DNA of 64,000 nt. Origin: Rhodoligotrophos defluvii. Its GTDB lineage: Bacteria > Pseudomonadota > Alphaproteobacteria > Rhizobiales > Im1. Position numbers and translations under genes: made by a program. The stretch is from NCBI RefSeq assembly GCF_005281615.1, contig NZ_SZZM01000001.1:1583455-1647454 (forward strand). The letters are read 5' to 3'. Positions 52,496-63,988 of the stretch are shown in pieces (position 1 is the first letter of the stretch; every line of letters starts with the position of its first letter). Below the pieces are notes generated by a model. It searched no databases. It had not been told where the DNA came from and saw only the letters and a program-made list of their open reading frames with translations.

Positions 52496-53887
52496 TCAAA
52501 GCACAAGGTAGGATGCAGCCGGGCGCTTGCTGCGGAGCAGTTCGGCCACGATCTCCAGCCCCTGCTGGAGCTCGCCGCGCGACGGCGTCGCTCCGCCCAG
52601 GCTCAGCCGAACGGCTTGTGGCGCCGGACCATGGCCCACCATGAAGGCTTCCGCCGGCGTTACGGCGACGCCACGGGAATTCGCAGCAGCGACAAACCCC
52701 TCCGCGCGCCAGCTTTCCGGGAGGGTCACCCAGACATGCAGACCGGTGGGCAGGGCACTCACCTGATAGCCGCTCAGGAGGTCCGCGGCCATGGCCTGAC
52801 GCTTCCGTAGCTCTTCACGTTGCTCGTCCACCAGGCGCTGCGCCGCACCGTTCTCGATGAGCCGACTGGCGATCTCGACCGAGAATAGCGACGCCATCCA
52901 GGTGGTCGAGGCAAGGCCAGGGATGAGGTCTTTGGCCCGGCCTCGCGGGGCCGCGATGAAGCCAATGCGAAGGCCGGCCGAGATGACCTTGGAGAGGCTG
53001 GTGAGGTAGAAGCCGTGCTCCGGCGCAAAACTGGCAATGGGGGGCAGTGGCCTGTCCATCAGGCCGCCGCACACGTCGTTTTCGATGATCGCCACATCGT
53101 AGCGGGCGGCGATCTCGGCGAGTGCCTTGCGCCGCTCGACTGGCATGACCGCGAGCGTGGGGCTGTGATGGGTGGGGATGCAGAACAGCGCGCGAATGGT
53201 GCCACCCTTGCAGGCCGCCTCGAACGCCTCCGGGATCACGCCGTGCTGATCGATGGCTACGCTTTTCGGCGTCAGGTGCCGATTGGCGACCAGGAAGCGG
53301 ATGCCTGGGTCGGCCAGCTCTTCCAGCAGAATGGTGTCGCCGGGCTCGGTGATGGCGTTGAGGATGGCAGCAGCGGCCTGCTGCGCCCCGTTCACAATGA
53401 CGATGTCGTCCGCATGGGCGGGATACCCGAGCGCCGATAGCCATTTGACCGCAGATAGGCGGTGCTCGGGGAAGCCGAGCCATGGACGGTGGTATGGCAC
53501 CAAGGCTTCGATGCGATCGCCTTCGACCACATCCTGCATGGCCCGGGCGATCGCCGCCTGCTGCGAGGGCAGCACCACCAAGCAGTTGAAGCTCAGATCG
53601 ATACGGTCGGACTGGGCGCGGTTCGGCTCGAGCCGGGGCAGGTCGGACGGGCGCGAAGTGACGAAGGTACCGCGGCCGACGGAGCCCTCGATGAGATGGC
53701 GACGCTCCGCCAGGGCATAGGCCTTGCTTACCGTGCTGACGGAAAGCTTCAGCTGCCACGCCAATTCCCGGTGGGTGGGCAAGCGCGCCCCCGGCGCCAG
53801 CCGCCCCTCGGCAATGTCCTCCGCCAGGGCATCAGCGATGGCGACATAGAGCTTGCCTTTGCGGTTCTTGTAGTTCGGTATCCACAT
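52496..53887 (-). CDS. MocR/GabR-type regulator (GntR HTH fused to aminotransferase-like domain)
   Basis: 463 residues. An N-terminal GntR winged helix (about 10-80: RLPTHRELAWQLKLSVSTVSKAY) is joined to a class I aminotransferase-like domain (about 110-450). The PLP Lys lies in LTSLSKVISAGLRIGF. Such proteins use PLP to sense an amino compound and activate or repress catabolic genes. ATG 53887 (MWIPNYKNRKGKLY) is the natural start. A palindrome TTGTTGTACGACAA sits 12 bp upstream of it, and a near-identical site precedes the importer 2 unit. Confidence 0.92.
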   Translation of the reverse strand: MWIPNYKNRKGKLYVAIADALAEDIAEGRLAPGARLPTHRELAWQLKLSVSTVSKAYALAERRHLIEGSVGRGTFVTSRPSDLPRLEPNRAQSDRIDLSFNCLVVLPSQQAAIARAMQDVVEGDRIEALVPYHRPWLGFPEHRLSAVKWLSALGYPAHADDIVIVNGAQQAAAAILNAITEPGDTILLEELADPGIRFLVANRHLTPKSVAIDQHGVIPEAFEAACKGGTIRALFCIPTHHSPTLAVMPVERRKALAEIAARYDVAIIENDVCGGLMDRPLPPIASFAPEHGFYLTSLSKVISAGLRIGFIAAPRGRAKDLIPGLASTTWMASLFSVEIASRLIENGAAQRLVDEQREELRKRQAMAADLLSGYQVSALPTGLHVWVTLPESWRAEGFVAAANSRGVAVTPAEAFMVGHGPAPQAVRLSLGGATPSRGELQQGLEIVAELLRSKRPAASYLVL

Positions 53888-53898
53888 ATGAAGGGGAG

Positions 53899-53912
53899 TT
53901 GTTGTACGACAA
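53899..53912. promoter_or_regulatory. Candidate MocR operator 1 (TTGTTGTACGACAA)
   Basis: This 14-bp near-perfect palindrome lies between the divergent MocR and monooxygenase genes, 8 bp upstream of the -35 box at 53921. It differs by one base from the site at 56083. Confidence 0.65.
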
Positions 53913-53920
53913 TGTTCAAA

Positions 53921-53948
53921 TTGACATGCAAATCTCACTCAACATAAT
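53921..53948 (+). promoter_or_regulatory. Sigma70-type promoter of the monooxygenase/M19 unit
   Basis: TTGACA (53921-53926), a 16-bp spacer and CATAAT (53943-53948). The operator at 53899-53912 is centred about 49 bp before the expected transcript start. Confidence 0.6.
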
Positions 53949-54016
53949 CCAAAACGCAATACAAATCCTCGCGGGCTCCTTCGCCCCCTACCGGCTGCCC
54001 GGCCAAAGGAGCGGTC

Positions 54017-55054
54017 ATGAAGTTCGGCTTCTATCTTCCCTGCTATTATCCAGACATGTCCTACCCGGCGGCGCAACTCTATCGGGACACGATCGAGGAA
54101 GCCAAGCTGGCTGAGGAGCTCGGCTTCATCTCCCTGACCATCCCGGAGCATCATTTCATCAACTATCTCGTTCACCCGAGCCCGCTGCTCACGGCGGTGC
54201 GGGTGGCGGCGGAGACCAAGTCGATCCCGCTCATCAGCGCGGTGCTGGTACTGCCGTTCTACGATATTCGCAGGCTTGCCGGCGAGATTGCCCAGGCGGA
54301 CTGCCTGACCGATGGACGCATTCAGATCGGCGTCGGGCGTGGCGCCTTCCGCTACGAGTTCGACCGCTTCAATGTGCCGGTGGAGGAAAGCCGCGACCGC
54401 TTCGATGACAGTCTCAACCTCTTGATGGCGCTGCTCAGCGAGGAGGAGGTGAGCTGGGACAGCAAGTATTACAAGTTCGATGCGCTCACGATCACCCCGC
54501 GGCCCTATCAGAAGCCCTGTCCGAAGATCTGGGTCGCCGCGCTGTCGGAAGGCGCGATCGCCGGCACGGTGCGCCGCGGGTTCAATGTGATGACCACGCC
54601 GCTGCGTGACCCGTTCGAGGCGGCGAGCCGGCAGGCCAAGGCGTTCCTTGCGGCCTTGCCGCCCGGCAATCCGCTCAACCAGAAGCACTCCATGCTGCGC
54701 ATGGGCTTCGTGACCAAGAACGATGCGGACACGACCGAGAAGCTGCAGCTCGCGCTCGAGAACCATCGGCGGTTCGTCAATGTGTTCGAAACGCCCGGCA
54801 CGGTGAAAGGGGGCGCGATCGTGCCGCTCGACGTGCCCGAGACCCTGGAGGATATCCGCCAGAGCCTGATCATCGGGTCGCCGCAGGAGTGCCTGGACAA
54901 GATCGGGCACTATGCCGAGCTCGGGATCGACGACATTCAGGTGAACATGAATTTCGGCGCATCGCACAGGGATGTCATGGGCGCGCTCGAGCGCTTTGCC
55001 GTTCACGTCATGCCCCATTTCAAGAGCACAGCCTCGGCCGAGGTAACGGTATGA
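54017..55054 (+). CDS. LLM-class (luciferase-like) flavin-dependent monooxygenase
   Basis: 345 residues of the bacterial luciferase-like TIM barrel: FYLPCYYPDMSYPAAQLYRD, ISLTIPEHHFINYLVHPSPL, RIQIGVGRGAFRYEFDRF and KIWVAALSEGAIA. These enzymes use reduced FMN or F420 to oxygenate or oxidise small molecules. AAAGGAGCGGTC precedes ATG 54017. It overlaps the M19 gene by four bases (ATGA), so the products likely act in sequence. Confidence 0.9.
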   Translation: MKFGFYLPCYYPDMSYPAAQLYRDTIEEAKLAEELGFISLTIPEHHFINYLVHPSPLLTAVRVAAETKSIPLISAVLVLPFYDIRRLAGEIAQADCLTDGRIQIGVGRGAFRYEFDRFNVPVEESRDRFDDSLNLLMALLSEEEVSWDSKYYKFDALTITPRPYQKPCPKIWVAALSEGAIAGTVRRGFNVMTTPLRDPFEAASRQAKAFLAALPPGNPLNQKHSMLRMGFVTKNDADTTEKLQLALENHRRFVNVFETPGTVKGGAIVPLDVPETLEDIRQSLIIGSPQECLDKIGHYAELGIDDIQVNMNFGASHRDVMGALERFAVHVMPHFKSTASAEVTV

Positions 55055-56076
55055 CCACCGAAAGCACGCGCGCCGCCGAGCTGCACAAGCGCGCCCTCAT
55101 CGTCGACGGCCTGGTCTTCTCCTGCGACACCGACGCGGTGCTGCGGCAGGGCAATGTTGCCGCGGTGAACGTCACCGTGTCGGACTTCAACGCAGATTTC
55201 GAAGGCGCTTGCGACGATATCGCCGGCTGGCTGGCCCGGGCGGCCGACCCGGCGGGCCCCTGGCACATCGTCGAGACGGTACAGGACATTCATGCGGCTC
55301 GGCAGGCCAACAAGATCGGCCTCATCATGGGCTGGCAGAACATGCGCGCCATCGGCGACCGGCTCGACCGGATCCGCTTTTTTCAGCGGCTCGGCATCCG
55401 GGTGATGCAGCTGACCTATAATGAGCGCAACTTCATCGGCGACGGCTGCCTGGAGCCGGCGGATGCAGGCCTGAGCCTGTTCGGCCGGCGCGTCATCACG
55501 GAGATGAACCGGTGCGGCGTTGCCATCGACCTGAGCCATGTGGGCCACCGCTCGGCGATGGACGCGGCGAGCTTGAGCGAGCGGCCGGTGCTCCTGACCC
55601 ATGCTAACGCCAAGGCGGTGTCGGACATGCCGCGCAACAAGCATGACGCGCTGATCAAGGCGGTGGCCGAGACCGGCGGACTGATCGGCGCCAGCGTCTA
55701 TGGTCCGATGTGCTGGGACGGCAATCCGGAGCGCCGGCCGACGCTGGAGGATTTCTATCGCCATCTCGATCATATCGTCAGCCTGGTGGGCATCGAGCAC
55801 GTGGCCTTCGGCACCGATTTTCCGGCGGTGACCGATCTCGATACGGTCGGGTCCATCATTCAGATGACGCTCGATCGCTACCCCACGGCGATCACCAAAT
55901 ATGCTGCCGCCTTCGGCAACGAGGTGCGCACGCGCTATCCCGTGGACTGCGGCTCGCCGGCCGAGCTCGGCAAGATCACGGAGCTGCTGGTGACGAAAGG
56001 CTGGAAAGAGGCCGACATCCTGGCCTTCCTCGGCGGCAATTACTTGCGCGTGCTGGACGCAATCTGGACCGTCTAG
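55051..56076 (+). CDS. M19 (membrane dipeptidase) family protein with altered metal site
   Basis: 341 residues with the renal dipeptidase-type TIM barrel. Retained ligands: His in AIDLSHVGH, His in LLTHANAKAVSD and Asp in VAFGTDF. The N-terminal HxD motif (usually DGHND) reads VDGLVFSCD, and the bridging Glu (usually VEGGH) reads GWQNM, so three of the expected ligands are replaced. This argues against an ordinary two-zinc dipeptidase and for a one-metal or different hydrolase. No signal peptide is visible, so it is cytoplasmic. It is coupled to the monooxygenase gene. Confidence 0.88.
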   Translation: MTTESTRAAELHKRALIVDGLVFSCDTDAVLRQGNVAAVNVTVSDFNADFEGACDDIAGWLARAADPAGPWHIVETVQDIHAARQANKIGLIMGWQNMRAIGDRLDRIRFFQRLGIRVMQLTYNERNFIGDGCLEPADAGLSLFGRRVITEMNRCGVAIDLSHVGHRSAMDAASLSERPVLLTHANAKAVSDMPRNKHDALIKAVAETGGLIGASVYGPMCWDGNPERRPTLEDFYRHLDHIVSLVGIEHVAFGTDFPAVTDLDTVGSIIQMTLDRYPTAITKYAAAFGNEVRTRYPVDCGSPAELGKITELLVTKGWKEADILAFLGGNYLRVLDAIWTV

Positions 56077-56082
56077 CGCTTC

Positions 56083-56096
56083 TTGTCGTACGACAA
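56083..56096. promoter_or_regulatory. Candidate MocR operator 2 (TTGTCGTACGACAA)
   Basis: A perfect 14-bp palindrome between the M19 stop and the importer 2 binding-protein gene. It lies 8 bp before TTGACC (56105-56110), followed by a 16-bp spacer and TAACGT, the same geometry as operator 1 and its promoter. Confidence 0.65.
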
Positions 56097-56209
56097 TATC
56101 GCTGTTGACCGGTTTGTTTGACCGGGTAACGTGAATTGTAGTGCGATCCGGAAAATCCTGGGTGAGGCTGAACGGGTTTCCGGACTCCAATAAATGGGGA
56201 GACGACAAT

Positions 56210-57259
56210 ATGCTGCGCTCCGGACTCATCTCTCGGACAACCTATCGCGCCGCGCTGCTCGTTGCTTGCGCGACAATGTTCGCCAATACCGCGCTGGCTC
56301 AGGACACGATCACCATCGCCTCCTGGGGCGGCAATTATCAGGAGGCTCTGTCGAAGGCCATCTGGCAGCCGACGGCCGAGAAGCTCGGGATCACGATCCT
56401 GGAGGACACCACCAACGGTCTGGCCGATGTGCGTGCCCAGGTCTCGGCCAACAGCGTGTTGTGGGATATCACCGAGCTCACCATCGACGGCTGTGCCCAA
56501 GGCGAGGCGGAGGGCCTGTTCGAAGACCTGGATTACAGCGTGATCGACAAATCCGGCTTCGACCCGGCCGTGGTGCAGCGGACCTATATCGGCCTCAACT
56601 ACTATTCCAACGTGATCGGCTGGAATAAGGACAAGTTCAAGGAAGGTCCACAATCCTGGGCCGACTTCTGGGACGTGGAGAAGTTCCCCGGCCGCCGCTC
56701 ACTCCGCAACGATCCGGCCGAGGTGCTGGAAGCCGCCCTGCTGGCGGACGGCGTGGCCCCGGATCAGCTCTACCCGCTCGATCTCGACCGGGCGTTCAAG
56801 AGCCTGGAGAAGATCAAGCCGCATATTTCGGTTTGGTGGTCGTCCGGCGCGCAGTCGGCCCAGCTGGTGGCGGATGGCGAGGTTGACCTGATCGGCGCCT
56901 GGAACGGCCGCATCAGCGCCGCCATCAAGTCGGGTGCGCCTTTCGACTTCACCTTCAACCAAGGGCTGCTCATCGCCGATTGCCTGGTGATCCCCAAGGG
57001 CGTGAAGAACAAGGATCTCGCCATGAAGGCCCTGGCAACGGCGGTCTCGGCCGAAATGCTGGCCAACCTGCCTCAGTACATCGACTACGGCCCCGCCAAC
57101 CTGAAGGCCTACGAGACCGGCAAGATCACGCCGGAAATCGCCAAGACCCTGAACACCGCACCCGAGAATGCCGCCAAGCAGGCCGTGGTCCGCGGCGACT
57201 GGTGGGGCAAGCACGGGGCCGAGGCGCGTGAGCGCTGGGCGCAGTTCATCAACCAGTAA
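56210..57259 (+). CDS. PotD-type extracellular solute-binding protein (importer 2)
   Basis: 349 residues. A Sec signal peptide is cleaved near TALAQ (about residue 30). The mature protein begins DTITIASWGGNYQEALSKA, typical of spermidine/putrescine-type binding proteins. Ligand-pocket aromatic residues include the WW in HISVWWSSGAQSAQLV. TGGGGAGACGACAAT precedes ATG 56210. It heads the importer 2 unit: binding protein, ATPase, permease, permease. The overall similarity to the 18514 protein shows common descent but probably a different ligand. Confidence 0.92.
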   Translation: MLRSGLISRTTYRAALLVACATMFANTALAQDTITIASWGGNYQEALSKAIWQPTAEKLGITILEDTTNGLADVRAQVSANSVLWDITELTIDGCAQGEAEGLFEDLDYSVIDKSGFDPAVVQRTYIGLNYYSNVIGWNKDKFKEGPQSWADFWDVEKFPGRRSLRNDPAEVLEAALLADGVAPDQLYPLDLDRAFKSLEKIKPHISVWWSSGAQSAQLVADGEVDLIGAWNGRISAAIKSGAPFDFTFNQGLLIADCLVIPKGVKNKDLAMKALATAVSAEMLANLPQYIDYGPANLKAYETGKITPEIAKTLNTAPENAAKQAVVRGDWWGKHGAEARERWAQFINQ

Positions 57260-57339: not shown

Positions 57340-58443
57340 ATGACGGTTCGTGAAGGTTCGGCGTCGCGCACGGGGCTGGACATCAGCATCAGGTCCCTGG
57401 TCAAGCAATATGGAGACTATAGGGCGCTCGATGGCGTCAGCCTCGATGTCGCCGCCGGCGAATTTCTGACCCTGCTCGGGCCTTCGGGCTCGGGCAAGTC
57501 CACCCTGCTGATGGTGATCGCCGGCTTCATCCGACCCACCTCCGGCCTGCTTTGCTTCGGCAGCCGCGACGTGACCAAGCTCGAGCCGCACAAGCGCAAT
57601 ATCGGCGTGGTCTTCCAGAACTATGCGCTGTTCCCGCACATGACCGTGGCCGCCAATGTCGCCTATCCCCTGAAGCTTCGCGGCCTGTCAAAGGCACAGG
57701 TTGCCGAGCGGGTCGACTGGGCCCTGTCGCTGGTCAAGCTGGAAGGCTTCGGCGACCGCACTATCGACCAGCTGTCGGGCGGCCAGCGCCAGCGGGTGGC
57801 GCTGGCCCGGGCGGTGGTGTTCGAGCCCGACGTGCTGCTCATGGATGAGCCCCTGTCCGCACTCGACAAGAAACTGCGTGAGCACATGCAGATCGAGATC
57901 CGCCGGCTGCACGACAAGCTGGGGGTGACCACGATCTATGTGACCCATGATCAGCGCGAGGCCCTCACCATGTCCGACCGCATTGCCGTGATCAATCACG
58001 GGCGGTTCGAGCAGGTCGCCGACCCCCGCACGCTTTACGAGAATCCGGCGAGCAGCTTCGTTGCCGATTTCATCGGTGATGCTACGGTGCTTGCCTTGGA
58101 GGGTAACGGCGGCCGCTGCACCCTCAACGGCCATCCCGTGCGCAGCCACGGCCGTGCGTTTTCCGGGCGGCAGGCCTTCCTGGTGCTGCGGCCGGAGAAG
58201 CTGCGCATCCTCAATGGCAATGACGACGAGCAGTGGAACCGGTTCGCCGGCGTGGTGAACGAGATCGTCTATCAGGGCGACAGCCTGCTGCTCTCGATCG
58301 AGCTGGAGCGGGGCGAGGTGGTCTTCCTGCGCCAGCCGACCGACCAGACGACACTCGAAGGGCTGCCCGCCAAGGGCGAGCCGATCGAGATCGGGCTGCA
58401 TGTGAATGACACACTGATCGTGCCCGGGCTCGCCGCGCAATGA
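57340..58443 (+). CDS. PotA-type ABC transporter ATP-binding protein (importer 2)
   Basis: 367 residues. Walker [26 protein letters not shown], signature LSGGQRQR, Walker [14 protein letters not shown] and the switch His in VTHDQREA are followed by a TOBE-type C-terminal domain. It energises the two permeases that follow and overlaps the first by four bases. Confidence 0.94.
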
Positions 58444-59312
58444 TGGTGCACCCGGCAGAAGAACTGGAGGCCGAAGACCGGGGGGAGCGGCTGCGGCTGT
58501 TGGCCTTGTCGCTGCCCTCGGTGCTGCTGGTCACCATCATTCTGCTGATCCCGGTGGGATGGCTGTTCTGGCTGTCCTTCTCGGGGCCGGACGGCCTGTC
58601 GCTGGTCAATTACATCAGGCTGTATGAGAACACCGCCTATCTCACGATCTTCCAAACCACGTTCCTGATCAGCCTCGTTGTCACGCTGCTCACCGCCGCA
58701 CTGGGCTATCCTTTTGCCTATCTCCTGTCGCAGCTGCCGCGGACACTCGCCATTCTCGGCCTGTTCGTGGTGTTGCTGCCGTTCTGGACGTCGACCCTGG
58801 TCAGGACCTATTCCTGGCTGGTGCTGCTGCAGCGCCGCGGGCTCGTCAACACGCTTCTCCTGAAGCTCGGCCTCGTGGGGGAGCCGCTGGGGCTGGTTTA
58901 TAACACCACCGGCGTGGTCATCGGCATGGTGCACATCATGCTGCCCTTCATGGTGCTGCCGCTCTATGCCGCCATGACCTCCGTCGACCCGACGCTGGTC
59001 AGGGCCGCCGTCAGCCTAGGCGCCACGCGCCGGCACGCCTTCTTCACCATCTTCGCGCCGCTGACCCTGCCTGGCCTCATCGCCGGCTCGCTGCTGGTGT
59101 TCATCTATTGCCTCGGCTTCTACATCACGCCGCAGATCCTGGGTGGCGGCCGGGTCAATCTCGTGTCCATGAAGATCCTGGAGAACGCCACCGTCTATTC
59201 GGACTGGGGCGCGGCCTCGGCACTGGGCGTCGTGCTCCTGGTCGCGACGCTTCTCATTTTCAAGCTGCTGCAGAAGATCCTGCCGGTCGAGCGGCTGTTG
59301 AGAAGGCCCTGA
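58440..59312 (+). CDS. PotB-type ABC transporter permease (importer 2)
   Basis: 290 residues with about six membrane spans and the EAA loop AAVSLGATRRHAFFTIFAPLTLPG. ATGA overlap with the ATPase gene. It is of ordinary length, unlike its counterpart in importer 1. Confidence 0.93.
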   Translation: MMVHPAEELEAEDRGERLRLLALSLPSVLLVTIILLIPVGWLFWLSFSGPDGLSLVNYIRLYENTAYLTIFQTTFLISLVVTLLTAALGYPFAYLLSQLPRTLAILGLFVVLLPFWTSTLVRTYSWLVLLQRRGLVNTLLLKLGLVGEPLGLVYNTTGVVIGMVHIMLPFMVLPLYAAMTSVDPTLVRAAVSLGATRRHAFFTIFAPLTLPGLIAGSLLVFIYCLGFYITPQILGGGRVNLVSMKILENATVYSDWGAASALGVVLLVATLLIFKLLQKILPVERLLRRP

Positions 59313-59315
59313 CGG

Positions 59316-60155
59316 ATGGATGATCCGACCATCACTCACCGTCAGCGCCTATGGCTATACGCCTATGGCATCGCCGTGAGCATCTTCCTTTTGGCGCCGA
59401 TCGCGATCGTCATCCCCATCTCGTTCTCGCCGGGCGAATTCCTGGAATTTCCGCCCTCCGAATTCTCCTTGCGCTGGTACCGCACCTTCTTCTCCAGCCC
59501 CGAGTGGATGAGCGCGACCTGGGTTTCCCTGAAGGCCGCAACGCTGACCGTCTTGCTGGCAACACCGCTGGGCGTGGCCGCCGCCTACGGACTGCATGTC
59601 TCGGAATCGCGCCTGGCCAAGAGCGTACGGCCGCTGCTGATCGTGCCGCTGATCGTTCCGGTGATCATCATCGCCATCGGCGTGTTCTATCTCTATGCGC
59701 GGCTGGCGCTCATCAACACGCTGACCGGGCTGGTCCTGGCCCATAGCGTGCTGGCGCTGCCTTTCGTGTTCGTGGTGGTGGGGGCGGGCTTCCAGCGCTA
59801 CGACATGGCGCAGGAGCTGGTCGCGCGCTCGCTGGGCGCCTCGCGCCTCAAGGCGTTCCTGACGGTGACGCTGCCGCAGATCCGGCCGTCGGTCATCTCG
59901 GCGGCCTTGTTCGCCTTCATCACGTCTTTCGACGAAGTGGTGATCGCTCTGTTCGTCTCGCGCGGACCCTCATCCACGCTCACCCGCAAGATGTTCACGT
60001 CCCTGCGCGATCAGGTCAGCCCGACCATCGCCGCGATCTCGACCATTCTCATCCTGGTGACGCTGCTGACAGCCGCCCTCATTCTCATCGCCCAGCTGCG
60101 GCAGAAGCCGCAAAGGGCCGCAGCGCTGGCGCCGGTCACGGCCCCCGAGGCCTGA
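59316..60155 (+). CDS. PotC-type ABC transporter permease (importer 2)
   Basis: 279 residues, six membrane spans, EAA loop ARSLGASRLKAFLTVTLPQIRP and the family stretch FAFITSFDEVVIALFVS. It follows the first permease by three bases. Its end is eight bases from that of the convergent M24 gene. Confidence 0.93.
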   Translation: MDDPTITHRQRLWLYAYGIAVSIFLLAPIAIVIPISFSPGEFLEFPPSEFSLRWYRTFFSSPEWMSATWVSLKAATLTVLLATPLGVAAAYGLHVSESRLAKSVRPLLIVPLIVPVIIIAIGVFYLYARLALINTLTGLVLAHSVLALPFVFVVVGAGFQRYDMAQELVARSLGASRLKAFLTVTLPQIRPSVISAALFAFITSFDEVVIALFVSRGPSSTLTRKMFTSLRDQVSPTIAAISTILILVTLLTAALILIAQLRQKPQRAAALAPVTAPEA

Positions 60156-60162
60156 TCGCGTA

Positions 60163-61326
60163 TCAGACGACATCGAGCGGCACGTCGCCGCCGCCGATCA
60201 GCATCTCGACGCCGTTTTCGGTGAGTGCATAGGTGCCGCCCTGAATGATGCCCAGCTGCTCGTCCACCAGCTGCAGATAGGCGTGCAGCACGAAGACCAT
60301 GCCCTCACGCATGGTCTGGTTCGAGCCGCGGCTGATCTGCAGCGGCTCGAGCCAGATGGGCGGGTAGGCGATGCCGATGCCGTAGCCGAAGCGCATCACC
60401 GCCGCCTGTTCGAGGCCAGCGGCGCGAACCGGCTCGAGGGAGGCTTCCTCGATATCGGTGACATTGGCGCCGGGGCGAATGGCAGCGATGCCGGCAGCAA
60501 GCGAGTGGCGGCCGATCTCGTAAACCTCGCGAGCGCGCCGGCTCGGCTCGCCCGCGGCCAGGGTGTGGATTGCGGTGGCGTGATAGCGGGCCTCGACGCC
60601 GGCGAATTCCAGATGCACGAGGTCGCCCCGCTCGATCACGCGGTTGCGCGCCGTGGCGTGGCCGCCGGCCGTGCGATCGCCGCTGGCGAGCTCCGTGGGA
60701 ATCGACCAGTAATCGCTGCCGGCCGACCGCATGGCATGTTCGATTGCATCCGCCAGGGCGATCTCGGTGATGCCGGGCTTCAGCGCCTGCCGCGCCGCGT
60801 CGAGCCCGGCTTGCGCATAGCGGCTGGCCCGGCGCAGATAGGCCATCTCCGCGGGCGACTTGATCAGCCGCGGCATGCCCATCAGCACGGTCGCGTCCAC
60901 GATCTGTGCCGGCGCAAGCGCCCGGGCGAGCGCCAGGCCCAGGGCGTGCGGCACGGCATAGGACTGGATCTCGATCGCCACCTTGCCGTCGCGCAGGCCC
61001 TTCTCGCGCGCGATCGCTGCGAAGATTGCCGGAATGTCGTCGAACATCAGCCGGTAGCAGCGAACGTCCTCCACCCACGAGCTCTCATAGGCAAGGGAGA
61101 GGTCCGTATCGCGCAGGATGATGGTCGGCTCATCCTCGTCGGCGGAGAAGATGAGTGCCTGCGGACTGTTCACACTGACCCAGGAGTCATAACCGCCGTA
61201 GTAATAAAGCGACTCCGGCGCCATGCTGATGCAATGGCCGATGCCTTGCTCCTTCAGCAGCCGCCGCGCTTCGGCCAGCCGCGCCCGGTGCTCCTGTTCC
61301 GTGAAACTCGCATATTTCGCCCGCAT
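60163..61326 (-). CDS. M24-fold hydrolase, creatinase/ectoine-hydrolase-like, metal ligands absent
   Basis: 387 residues: a creatinase-N domain (about 1-145) and a pita-bread domain. A His aligns with creatinase His232 (SGDRTAGGHATARN). The five metal ligands of true M24 peptidases are all changed: Asp to Glu (VHLEF), Asp to Thr, His to Tyr (FGYGIG), Glu to His (FVLHAYL) and Glu to Gly. It is thus probably a metal-independent amidohydrolase such as a creatinase- or ectoine-hydrolase-like enzyme. The ATG at 61326 (MRAKYASF) is preferred over an upstream GTG. It is divergent from the LysR gene and convergent with importer 2. Confidence 0.87.
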   Translation of the reverse strand: MRAKYASFTEQEHRARLAEARRLLKEQGIGHCISMAPESLYYYGGYDSWVSVNSPQALIFSADEDEPTIILRDTDLSLAYESSWVEDVRCYRLMFDDIPAIFAAIAREKGLRDGKVAIEIQSYAVPHALGLALARALAPAQIVDATVLMGMPRLIKSPAEMAYLRRASRYAQAGLDAARQALKPGITEIALADAIEHAMRSAGSDYWSIPTELASGDRTAGGHATARNRVIERGDLVHLEFAGVEARYHATAIHTLAAGEPSRRAREVYEIGRHSLAAGIAAIRPGANVTDIEEASLEPVRAAGLEQAAVMRFGYGIGIAYPPIWLEPLQISRGSNQTMREGMVFVLHAYLQLVDEQLGIIQGGTYALTENGVEMLIGGGDVPLDVV

Positions 61327-61374
61327 GGCTGCACTCCCCGCACACACTTCCGAGCATCATCCGGAAAGTTTGGG

Positions 61375-61386: not shown

Positions 61387-61452
61387 GCGCGGGCATTTCC
61401 GCGGCGGTGACATGCTGGACGGCGGAAGACACCGGGCGGTAAACTCTGCTGG

Positions 61453-61555
61453 AGCATTTTCGAGCGAAGTGGATACCGGTTCGCGTGAAGAAGATGCGAC
61501 CAGGCAAAAACCTAGGGTGCTTCCGCGATTCGACGAAGCGCGGAAGCGCTCTAGG
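61453..61555. repeat. REP-like element, both modules
   Basis: The first module (61453-61502) repeats the sequence at 42720-42769 with one changed base in its end (AGATGCGACC). The second module (61511-61555) is a hairpin with arms CCTAG and GCTTCCGCG against CGCGGAAGC and CTAGG. This is the most complete of the three copies. Confidence 0.8.
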
Positions 61556-61588
61556 CAAGGCACCTGTCCAACTGCTCGGGAAACGGCC

Positions 61589-62539
61589 ATGCTGGAGAGC
61601 CGGAACTTGCCTGACCTGAAGGCCTTTCGCGTCTTCGTCGCGGTGGCGGAAGGGGGCGGCATCAAAGCGGCAGCGGAGAAGCTGGGCCGCACGCCGTCGG
61701 CCATTTCCATGACGCTCAAGGCCCTCGAGGAGAGCCTGGGCGCCCCGCTGTTCCAGGCCGAGCGCAAGGCGCATCTCACGCCCTTCGGCCGGCTGGTGCT
61801 AGATGAAGCGCGCGAGCTGCTGCACCACTTCGCCACCTCCTGCGCCACCATGCAGTCCTATGCGCGTAACCAGATCGGCCGCTGCGACGTGGCGAGCGTG
61901 ACGTCGGTGTCCATCGCCTTCCTGCCGGCGGCCATCCGGCGGGTGCAGCAGACCCTGCCCGAGTTCGGCGTCCATGTGCGGCAGATGGAATCCAAGTTTT
62001 CGGCCGATGCTTTGCTCGACGGTGTGGTGGACATTGCATTCGCGGCCCACCTCCCGCGGCCGGACGAAATCAGCTTCGAGCCGCTGTTCCGCGATGCCTT
62101 CGACATCGTTTGCGCCGAGAACGATCCGCTGACGAAGGAGAAGACGCCGTTGTCGTGGTCGGCCATCAGGGATAGGCCGTTCATCTTCAACGACAGCTTC
62201 GCGGTCATCCGGACGCCGGAGCTCCTGGAGATCACCGAGCGTGCGGTGATGTGGATCGGCAGCGTGTTCGCCCTGCTTGCCGCACTGCGGCAAGGGCTGG
62301 GGGTGAGCGTTCTGCCGCGCCTGTGCCGGGTGCAGGGGGCCGAGGGCCTGCGCTTCCTGCCGGTGGAGGATCCGACCGCGTTCCGGGTCGTCGGCCTGCT
62401 GTCGAAGAAAGACAGGCGCCAGCTGCCGGGCACACGGCATTTTGCCAATGCCGTGTACGAGGTCATCCAGGAGCAGGCCGGCATCTATGATTACGAACTG
62501 CTCTCGGCCAAGGAGCCGACGCAGTATCTCCCGGCCTGA
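61589..62539 (+). CDS. LysR-family transcriptional regulator
   Basis: 316 residues. The N-terminal winged helix (LKAFRVFVAVAEGGGIKAAAEKLGRTPSAISMTLKALEE) and effector-binding domain are typical. ATG 61589 follows the REP-like element by 33 bp, so the repeat lies within or just before its promoter. It is divergent from the M24 hydrolase gene, its probable target, and convergent with the aldehyde dehydrogenase gene. Confidence 0.92.
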   Translation: MLESRNLPDLKAFRVFVAVAEGGGIKAAAEKLGRTPSAISMTLKALEESLGAPLFQAERKAHLTPFGRLVLDEARELLHHFATSCATMQSYARNQIGRCDVASVTSVSIAFLPAAIRRVQQTLPEFGVHVRQMESKFSADALLDGVVDIAFAAHLPRPDEISFEPLFRDAFDIVCAENDPLTKEKTPLSWSAIRDRPFIFNDSFAVIRTPELLEITERAVMWIGSVFALLAALRQGLGVSVLPRLCRVQGAEGLRFLPVEDPTAFRVVGLLSKKDRRQLPGTRHFANAVYEVIQEQAGIYDYELLSAKEPTQYLPA

Positions 62540-62560
62540 CCAGCCGTCTGGCGGCCGCCT

Positions 62561-63988
62561 TCAGGCAACCAGTGCGCCGACCACCGCCTTGGTTTCCAGG
62601 TATTCCTCGAGGCCATAGACGCCCTGCTCGCGGCCATTGCCCGACTGGCCATAGCCGCCGAAGGGCGCCATGGAGTCATAAGGCGGATAGTTGATCAGCA
62701 CCTGGCCGGAGCGCAGGCGCGCTGCCACCTTCACCGCGGTTTCGCGATCGCCCTGCACATTCGCGGAGAGGCCATAGACCGTGTCGTTGGCAATCTGCAC
62801 CGCCTCGTCCAGGTCGCGATAGGGCATGATCGCCAGCACCGGGCCGAAGATCTCGTCGCGAGCGATGGTCATGTCCCGGCGCACATTGGAGAAGACGGTG
62901 GGGCGCACATAATAGCCGCGGTTCAGGCCCTCCGGTCGGCCGGGACCTCCGGTCACCAGCTTGGCGCCCTCGGCGATGCCCCGCTCGATATAGTGCTGGA
63001 TCTTGTCGAACTGCGCCTTGCTGATGGCCGGCCCGAGGTCGACGTCATCCCGGGTGGGATCACCCACCCGCATCGCCTCGGCCGCGCGCTTGGCAATGGC
63101 TTCCACCTGCTCCACGGCATCCGCCGGCACCAGCATACGCGCCGGCGAGGTACAGGACTGGCCCGTGTTGCGGAAGCAGTTTTGCACGCCGCGGGTGACC
63201 GCCGGCTCCAGGTCGGCGCTCTCCAGCAGGATATTCGCCGTCTTGCCGCCTAGCTCCTGAGCGACGCGCTTGATGGTATCGGCCGCGGCCTTGGCCACCG
63301 CCGCGCCGGCCCGGGTCGAGCCGGTGATCGACACCATGGCCACATCGGGGTGAGCGGAGATGGCGTGGCCGACGGTCGGCCCATCGCCGTTCACCAGATT
63401 GAACACGCCCTTGGGCACGCCCGCCTCGTGCAGCACGTCGGCGAAGATCATGGCGCCGAAAGGGGCGATCTCGCTGGGCTTGACCACCATGGTGCAGCCC
63501 GTGGCCAGCGCCGGCGCCACCTTCAGCACCAGCTGGTTGATCGGCCAGTTCCAGGGTGTGATCAGGCCGACCACGCCGATTGGCTCGCGCACGATCAGGG
63601 TCGTGCCTTGCGGCCGCTCGAAGGCGAAGCTTTCCAGGGCTAACATCGTGTGGCGAAGGTGGTTCACCCCCGTCTGCGCCTGGGCTTCCAGCGCAAACCG
63701 TTTTGGGGCCCCCATCTCGCGGGTAAGCGCCTCGGCGACCTCCTCTCGGCGGTCCATGTAGCAGTCGAGAATGCGCTGCAGCAGCTTGAGGCGTTCATCC
63801 TTCGTGGTCGCGGAGAAGGTGGGAAAGGCCGCCTTGGCCGCCGCAACCGCCCGGTCCACGTCAGCGGCGGTTCCGGCGGCGACCTCGGCGAAGGCCTCTT
63901 CGGTCGCGGGATTGGTCACCGCAATCCGCGCGGTGGAGAGCGGGTCGACCCAGGCGCCATCGATATAGAACTTCAGGGCGTGCTTCAT
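62561..63988 (-). CDS. NAD(P)-dependent aldehyde dehydrogenase
   Basis: 475 residues. The catalytic Cys279 lies in NTGQSCTSPAR and Glu245 in QELGGK; the NAD motif is ITGSTRAGAAVA, and TPWNWPINQLVLKVAPALATG is the conserved core helix. It oxidises an aldehyde to an acid. AGAGGAAATTCC precedes ATG 63988, so the gene is complete. It may finish the breakdown of an amine or amide imported by importer 2. Confidence 0.94.
   Translation of the reverse strand: MKHALKFYIDGAWVDPLSTARIAVTNPATEEAFAEVAAGTAADVDRAVAAAKAAFPTFSATTKDERLKLLQRILDCYMDRREEVAEALTREMGAPKRFALEAQAQTGVNHLRHTMLALESFAFERPQGTTLIVREPIGVVGLITPWNWPINQLVLKVAPALATGCTMVVKPSEIAPFGAMIFADVLHEAGVPKGVFNLVNGDGPTVGHAISAHPDVAMVSITGSTRAGAAVAKAAADTIKRVAQELGGKTANILLESADLEPAVTRGVQNCFRNTGQSCTSPARMLVPADAVEQVEAIAKRAAEAMRVGDPTRDDVDLGPAISKAQFDKIQHYIERGIAEGAKLVTGGPGRPEGLNRGYYVRPTVFSNVRRDMTIARDEIFGPVLAIMPYRDLDEAVQIANDTVYGLSANVQGDRETAVKVAARLRSGQVLINYPPYDSMAPFGGYGQSGNGREQGVYGLEEYLETKAVVGALVA

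Follow-up and report, generated by a model that had tools for sequence, protein, structure and literature searches.

Predicted EnuR-type operators at two promoters of a monooxygenase-dipeptidase-transporter gene cluster

The gene cluster and its two palindromic sites

The window analyzed here (64,000 nucleotides; contig 1, positions 1583455 to 1647454, of a 5.49-Mb genome) carries a mocR gene and, divergent from it, an operon encoding a luciferase-like (LLM) monooxygenase and an M19 family dipeptidase, followed by the genes of a spermidine/putrescine-type (Pot-type) ABC transporter (Table 1). One EnuR-type palindrome (site A) lies between mocR and the LLM-M19 operon, 11 nt from the MocR start codon, and another (site B) lies before the transporter, between the dipeptidase stop codon and the gene for the solute-binding protein. 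The predicted targets are not ectoine genes and look like an uptake and breakdown system for a nitrogen compound. Convergent with the transporter is an M24 peptidase gene, a distant relative of ectoine hydrolase (176 bits, far below the cut-offs), which is conserved in the congener G002 (86%); in G001, it was not found at this locus. The surroundings of this gene have no palindrome. A LysR-type regulator and an aldehyde dehydrogenase are encoded beyond the transporter.

Table 1. Positions of the genes and predicted regulatory elements in the window
Feature	Positions	Strand	Remark or basis
mocR, regulator of 463 aa (GntR wHTH and aminotransferase domain)	52496-53887	-	EhuR/EnuR clade
Site A, EnuR-type palindrome TTGTTGTACGACAA	53899-53912	+	sequence, genome pattern search, two congeners
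Box 3 of site A, ATTGACATG	53920-53928	+	repeats half-site ATTG(T/A)CATG; contains -35 TTGACA (53921-53926)
Candidate -10 of promoter A, CATAAT	53943-53948	+	16-bp spacer
ACGCAATACAAAT	53954-53966	+	genus-conserved element near expected start of promoter A
LLM monooxygenase	54017-55054	+	first gene of operon divergent from mocR
M19 family dipeptidase	55051-56076	+	
Site B, perfect palindrome TTGTCGTACGACAA	56083-56096	+	sequence, genome pattern search, two congeners
Box 3 of site B, GTTGACCGG	56104-56112	+	contains -35 TTGACC (56105-56110)
Candidate -10 of promoter B, TAACGT	56127-56132	+	16-bp spacer
AATTGTAGTGCGATCC	56134-56149	+	similar to ACGCAATACAAAT, opposite orientation, near expected start of promoter B
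ABC transporter solute-binding protein (SBP_bac_8)	56210-57259	+	PotD-like
ABC transporter ATPase	57340-58443	+	PotA subfamily
ABC permease	58440-59312	+	PotB/PotH-like
ABC permease	59316-60155	+	PotC/PotI-like
M24 peptidase	60163-61347	-	
LysR-type regulator and aldehyde dehydrogenase	61412-63988		

A preliminary description of this DNA had reported two almost identical palindromes with the same promoter geometry, and its measurements hold when read from the sequence. The sites differ by a single base and have the same orientation. At site A, the palindrome is followed by 8 nt (tgttcaaa), the -35 hexamer TTGACA, a spacer of 16 nt, and CATAAT; at site B, it is followed by 8 nt (tatcgctg), TTGACC, 16 nt, and TAACGT. 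The gap and the spacer are exact as described, and the -10 hexamers are the weak point. Genome-wide counts were obtained by pattern searches, and the search for further copies suggested in that description found none in the 5.49 Mb: without mismatch, TTGTYGTACGACAA matches sites A and B only, and the compound pattern TTGTN6ACAATN7TTGAC matches only the same two sites even at one mismatch, with 0 matches for its reversed control.

The whole cluster is kept in two genomes of the same genus, with protein identities of 79 to 93%, and both congeners have sites A and B at orthologous positions with the same 8-nt gap. Across the three species, 14/14 core columns are identical in each site, compared with 59/118 and 59/124 of the remaining intergenic columns. 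TTGT, ACAAT, and TTGAC are fixed while the palindrome centers drift (TGTACG, TGTATG, and GGCATG; CGTACG, CGCACA, and CATGCT), and because the center changes among the three species, the outer arms TTGT and ACAAT are the constrained part. These observations support palindromes A and B as real, conserved sites at two promoters, predicted to be bound by a regulator of the EnuR type.

With 11 of 12 positions as in the sigma-70 consensus, promoter A should not need an activator. The -10 of promoter B matches TATAAT at 3 of 6 positions. The candidate -10 elements are less clear than the rest of both sites, that of site B being poor; G002 has CATAGG in place of CATAAT at site A, and TAACGTGAATTG at the -10 of site B is the same in the window species and both congeners. 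The plus strand showed no terminator-like structure from the dipeptidase gene to site B, so promoter B may be internal to a single long operon. A conservation search for the mocR promoter gave no convincing candidate. Near the expected transcription starts of promoters A and B lie conserved TTGTANTGCG-like elements in opposite orientations, which could represent an additional half-box or be bound by another protein; the one at promoter A is possibly an extra half-box with an ACAA arm.

The MocR regulator and linkage of the motif to its clade

The window MocR has the architecture of the MocR subfamily, with PF00392 at residues 13 to 76 and PF00155 at residues 156 to 444, and its predicted PLP site is K300 in SLSK, aligned to K302 of the EnuR numbering. 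It passes the NCBIfam EhuR model NF052286 marginally, at 490.9 bits against a cut-off of 480, and is the third EnuR/EhuR-clade paralogue of the genome, the two others scoring 668 and 629. On contig 2, one of these better-scoring EhuR proteins is encoded together with eutABCD and ehuBCD. The other (629 bits) is encoded on contig 4 (G000, L066) with a second ehuBCD set and no eut genes within the 18 kb read; this set is perhaps a transporter for another compound. Beside the window MocR, no ectoine or hydroxyectoine genes (eut or ehu) are present at the locus. In a maximum likelihood tree, the LLM-linked MocR proteins, namely, the window MocR, its congener orthologues, a G002 paralogue, and two regulators from another order, formed a clade (98/95), the ectoine-linked side had a support of 95/96, and the joint clade had a support of 96/96 (97/92 for the joint EnuR/EhuR clade in an earlier tree without the rows from the other order). 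The window MocR is thereby sister to the ectoine-linked clade and outside it, and an LLM monooxygenase gene adjoins 6/6 members of the LLM-linked clade. At the positions that align with F417, R429, and S431 of EnuR, the window MocR has the same residues. The segment near position 244 is xxNPT in most ectoine-clade regulators and HHSPT or HHIPT throughout the LLM-linked clade. Residue numbers were transferred from a Ruegeria relative, which itself has G at position 244. The conserved PLP lysine and pocket positions, together with the changed segment, suggest, as a lead only, an amino-acid-like inducer unlike ectoine derivatives.

The EnuR/EutR operator consensus, as quoted in PMC8739950 from PMC5320631, is ATTGTN6ACAAT. 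Both window sites fit TTGTN6ACAAT, with G and C in place of the first A of the consensus. Among 297 genomes of the order, TTGTN6ACAATN7TTGAC was matched exactly 13 times and its reversed control 5 times; of the 13 matches, six are in the genus itself, and four of the other seven lie directly beside EnuR-type MocR genes (G052, G088, G042, and G069). With one mismatch, the unit adjoins the second LLM-linked MocR gene of G002 (G002:C4) and the MocR gene of G003, after which comes a true ectoine hydrolase gene in a bona fide ectoine operon. At the scale of the phylum (398 genomes), a match in G880 lies 19 nt from a MocR gene, and the pattern is not enriched over the reversed control (7 versus 10 matches), so the evidence lies in the linkage to regulator genes and not in raw frequency. 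A scan of genome contigs, made to find close MocR relatives, returned six distant loci. All six lack an exact site, and the one in Ruegeria has the two-box form. Since the neighboring MocR belongs to the EnuR/EhuR clade, for which a matching consensus has been published, and since the motif is linked to genes of this clade in other families, it is supported as the best candidate regulator of sites A and B.

Related modules occur elsewhere. Contig 4 of G002 (L063, 5767 to 14138) holds a paralogous module with an EnuR-like MocR, an LLM monooxygenase (56% identical), a Pot-type transporter, and the same operator geometry. This module also holds a succinate-semialdehyde-type dehydrogenase, which would fit oxidative aldehyde release from an amine. 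In G409 and G675, which belong to another order and have orthologous MocR-LLM-M19 loci, the MocR-LLM gap contains two TTGTN6ACAA palindromes, one of them situated after the promoter and before the LLM start codon. In the other order, two TTGTATCAGTACAA-type palindromes, 87 to 88 bp apart, flank the promoter between the MocR and LLM genes (L139, 8312 to 8413; L142, 1540 to 1640). LLM-M19 pairs in G409 and G675 adjoin a LysR gene, not a MocR gene (L140, 6063 to 9080; L143, 6931 to 9930), and thus combine the same enzyme pair with another regulator type. LLM homologues of about 45% identity within the same order have no adjoining MocR, M19, or transporter gene.

Overlap of the -35 hexamer with a further half-site

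Around EnuR-type genes, the layout reads ATTGTCATGA...AAT-N-ATTGACATGATTT, with TTGACA inside the second copy of the half-site. The second copy of the half-site ATTG(T/A)CATGA lies downstream of the first, at a distance of mostly 22 or 23 bp, and box pairs with up to 4 mismatches of 20 occur in 16 MocR loci, versus 0 to 5 for shuffled boxes. When 18 lineages were aligned on TTGAC, A at -1 (16/18) and G at +7 (17/18) were conserved as box columns, and A at +24 (15/18) and T at +28 (14/18) were conserved as -10 columns at a 17-bp spacer. The latter two fall at the positions that are strongest in a -10 element. These four columns were not used in site selection, from which the invariance of TTGAC itself partly stems. 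Because unselected columns are conserved for both the box and the -10, the TTGAC of EnuR-type promoters is both a true -35 hexamer and part of the predicted operator box. The window sites, with box 3 holding the -35 hexamer in each (Table 1), share the G at +7, but their spacer is 16 bp long and their first box is more degenerate (TTGTTGTAC and TTGTCGTAC), departing from the canonical ATTGTCATGA. For these sites, the register chosen by the direct-repeat scan was not the true one.

Proposed regulation and comparison with known systems

The best explanation as a whole, which we consider likely, is that the adjacent EnuR-type MocR is a repressor, that the palindromes serve as its operators, and that repression is relieved by an inducer. 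We infer that the window MocR binds a compound site at each promoter, consisting of the palindrome TTGTN6ACAAT and a third half-site box, which lies 22 bp (about two helical turns) downstream of the half-site and holds the -35 hexamer. When no inducer is available, a MocR-PLP dimer on the boxes would keep RNA polymerase off the -35, and both promoter A, serving the monooxygenase and dipeptidase genes, and promoter B, serving the transporter genes, would be shut off; mocR, with its start codon 11 nt from palindrome A, would probably be repressed as well. The inducer would be an amine or amino acid made in the cell from the imported compound, and it would form an aldimine with PLP, leading to the release of MocR and the activity of both promoters.

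The layout of operator and promoter and the known role of EnuR favor repression over activation, and repression by MocR at promoters A and B is accordingly rated here as quite probable, with activation rated as unlikely. EnuR acts as a repressor; its predicted operators overlap the -35 and -10, and a mutant unable to hold PLP represses constitutively (PMC8739950). The preliminary description had proposed a real activator site used at two promoters. Conservation and uniqueness in the genome uphold real sites at two promoters, and the activator role is not supported and probably wrong. In its model, which appears improbable, MocR binds the palindrome, centered near -51, recruits RNA polymerase at promoters A and B, and represses its own gene from site A. 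This would agree with the divergent arrangement, with the weak -10 of promoter B, with a palindrome situated upstream of the -35 rather than over it, and with GabR, TauR, and PdxR, which activate divergent operons and are often autorepressors (PMC5320631). However, the nearest characterized relative, EnuR, is a repressor, the -35 is covered by a third regulator box, and promoter A is near consensus (11/12). In addition, the orthologous loci in G409 and G675 have a predicted operator downstream of the promoter and ahead of the LLM start codon, a position typical of repressors.

Binding of the palindromes by a regulator other than MocR is very improbable. A FadR-type GntR protein would suit the GTAC-centered palindrome, and many further GntR proteins are encoded in the genome, but the GTAC center is not conserved in the congeners, which keep the outer TTGT/ACAA only, and a FadR-type operator was rejected on this ground. 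A LysR protein would find T-N11-A present; a LysR gene lies near 61.5 to 62.5 kb, and two LLM-M19 pairs (G409 and G675) are beside LysR instead of MocR. Those pairs nevertheless lack TTGTN6ACAA, save for one site well away from the genes, and the motif travels with EnuR-clade genes across families; a LysR box was likewise rejected. That a common GntR-like palindrome stands by chance beside two unrelated promoters is hardly credible: short palindromes are common and the -10 of site B is poor, yet the sites are conserved twice in three species, have identical geometry, and are unique in the genome, and chance was rejected as contradicted by this conservation.

The operator and the regulator favored here are of a known kind. 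The chances seem about even that a separate orthologous group of EnuR-like MocR repressors exists in at least two orders of the Alphaproteobacteria and that it controls a monooxygenase-dipeptidase pathway for a nitrogen compound, senses an amine or amino acid product through PLP, and has inherited the ectoine-type operator with its extra box as the -35. The set of LLM, M19, and Pot-type targets is not mentioned in the main text of the papers examined; the supplementary tables of PMC5320631 may list this group. An LLM, M19, and Pot-type catabolic module would thereby be tied to a regulator clade of understood chemistry, and the inducer, which should bear a primary amine and be a product of the pathway, would offer a direct route to the substrate. 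Duplication of the regulator would have carried the operator-promoter geometry to a new pathway. The overlap also raises the question of whether the -35 of EnuR-type promoters is itself an operator box; in Ruegeria pomeroyi, whether both predicted EnuR sites matter was left open (PMC8739950).

Among known systems, GabR (Bacillus subtilis) and TauR share the MocR architecture, a divergent target operon, and probable autorepression with the window system, but they are activators, and the sites published for them are direct repeats that differ in sequence (ATACCA; CTGGACYTAA) (PMC4494728). GntR regulators of the FadR subfamily resemble the window system in their GntR reading head and in having palindromes that contain GT/AC pairs as operators, but FadR conserves the palindrome center, whereas the window sites keep the outer arms and vary in the center. 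The nearest likeness is to EnuR/EhuR/EutR, the MocR-type repressor of ectoine uptake and catabolism in R. pomeroyi and Sinorhizobium meliloti, in clade, PLP lysine, pocket positions F417, R429, and S431, the operator TTGTN6ACAAT, and operators that overlap the promoter core, with palindrome-N7-TTGAC also present at the true ectoine operon of G003. The window system differs from it in its predicted targets, namely, LLM monooxygenase, M19 dipeptidase, and Pot-type ABC transporter genes; the ectoine genes of the genome lie elsewhere, with their own EhuR proteins. The palindrome center in the window is GTAC instead of CATG, and the pocket segment is HHSPT or HHIPT instead of the xxNPT of most ectoine-clade members.
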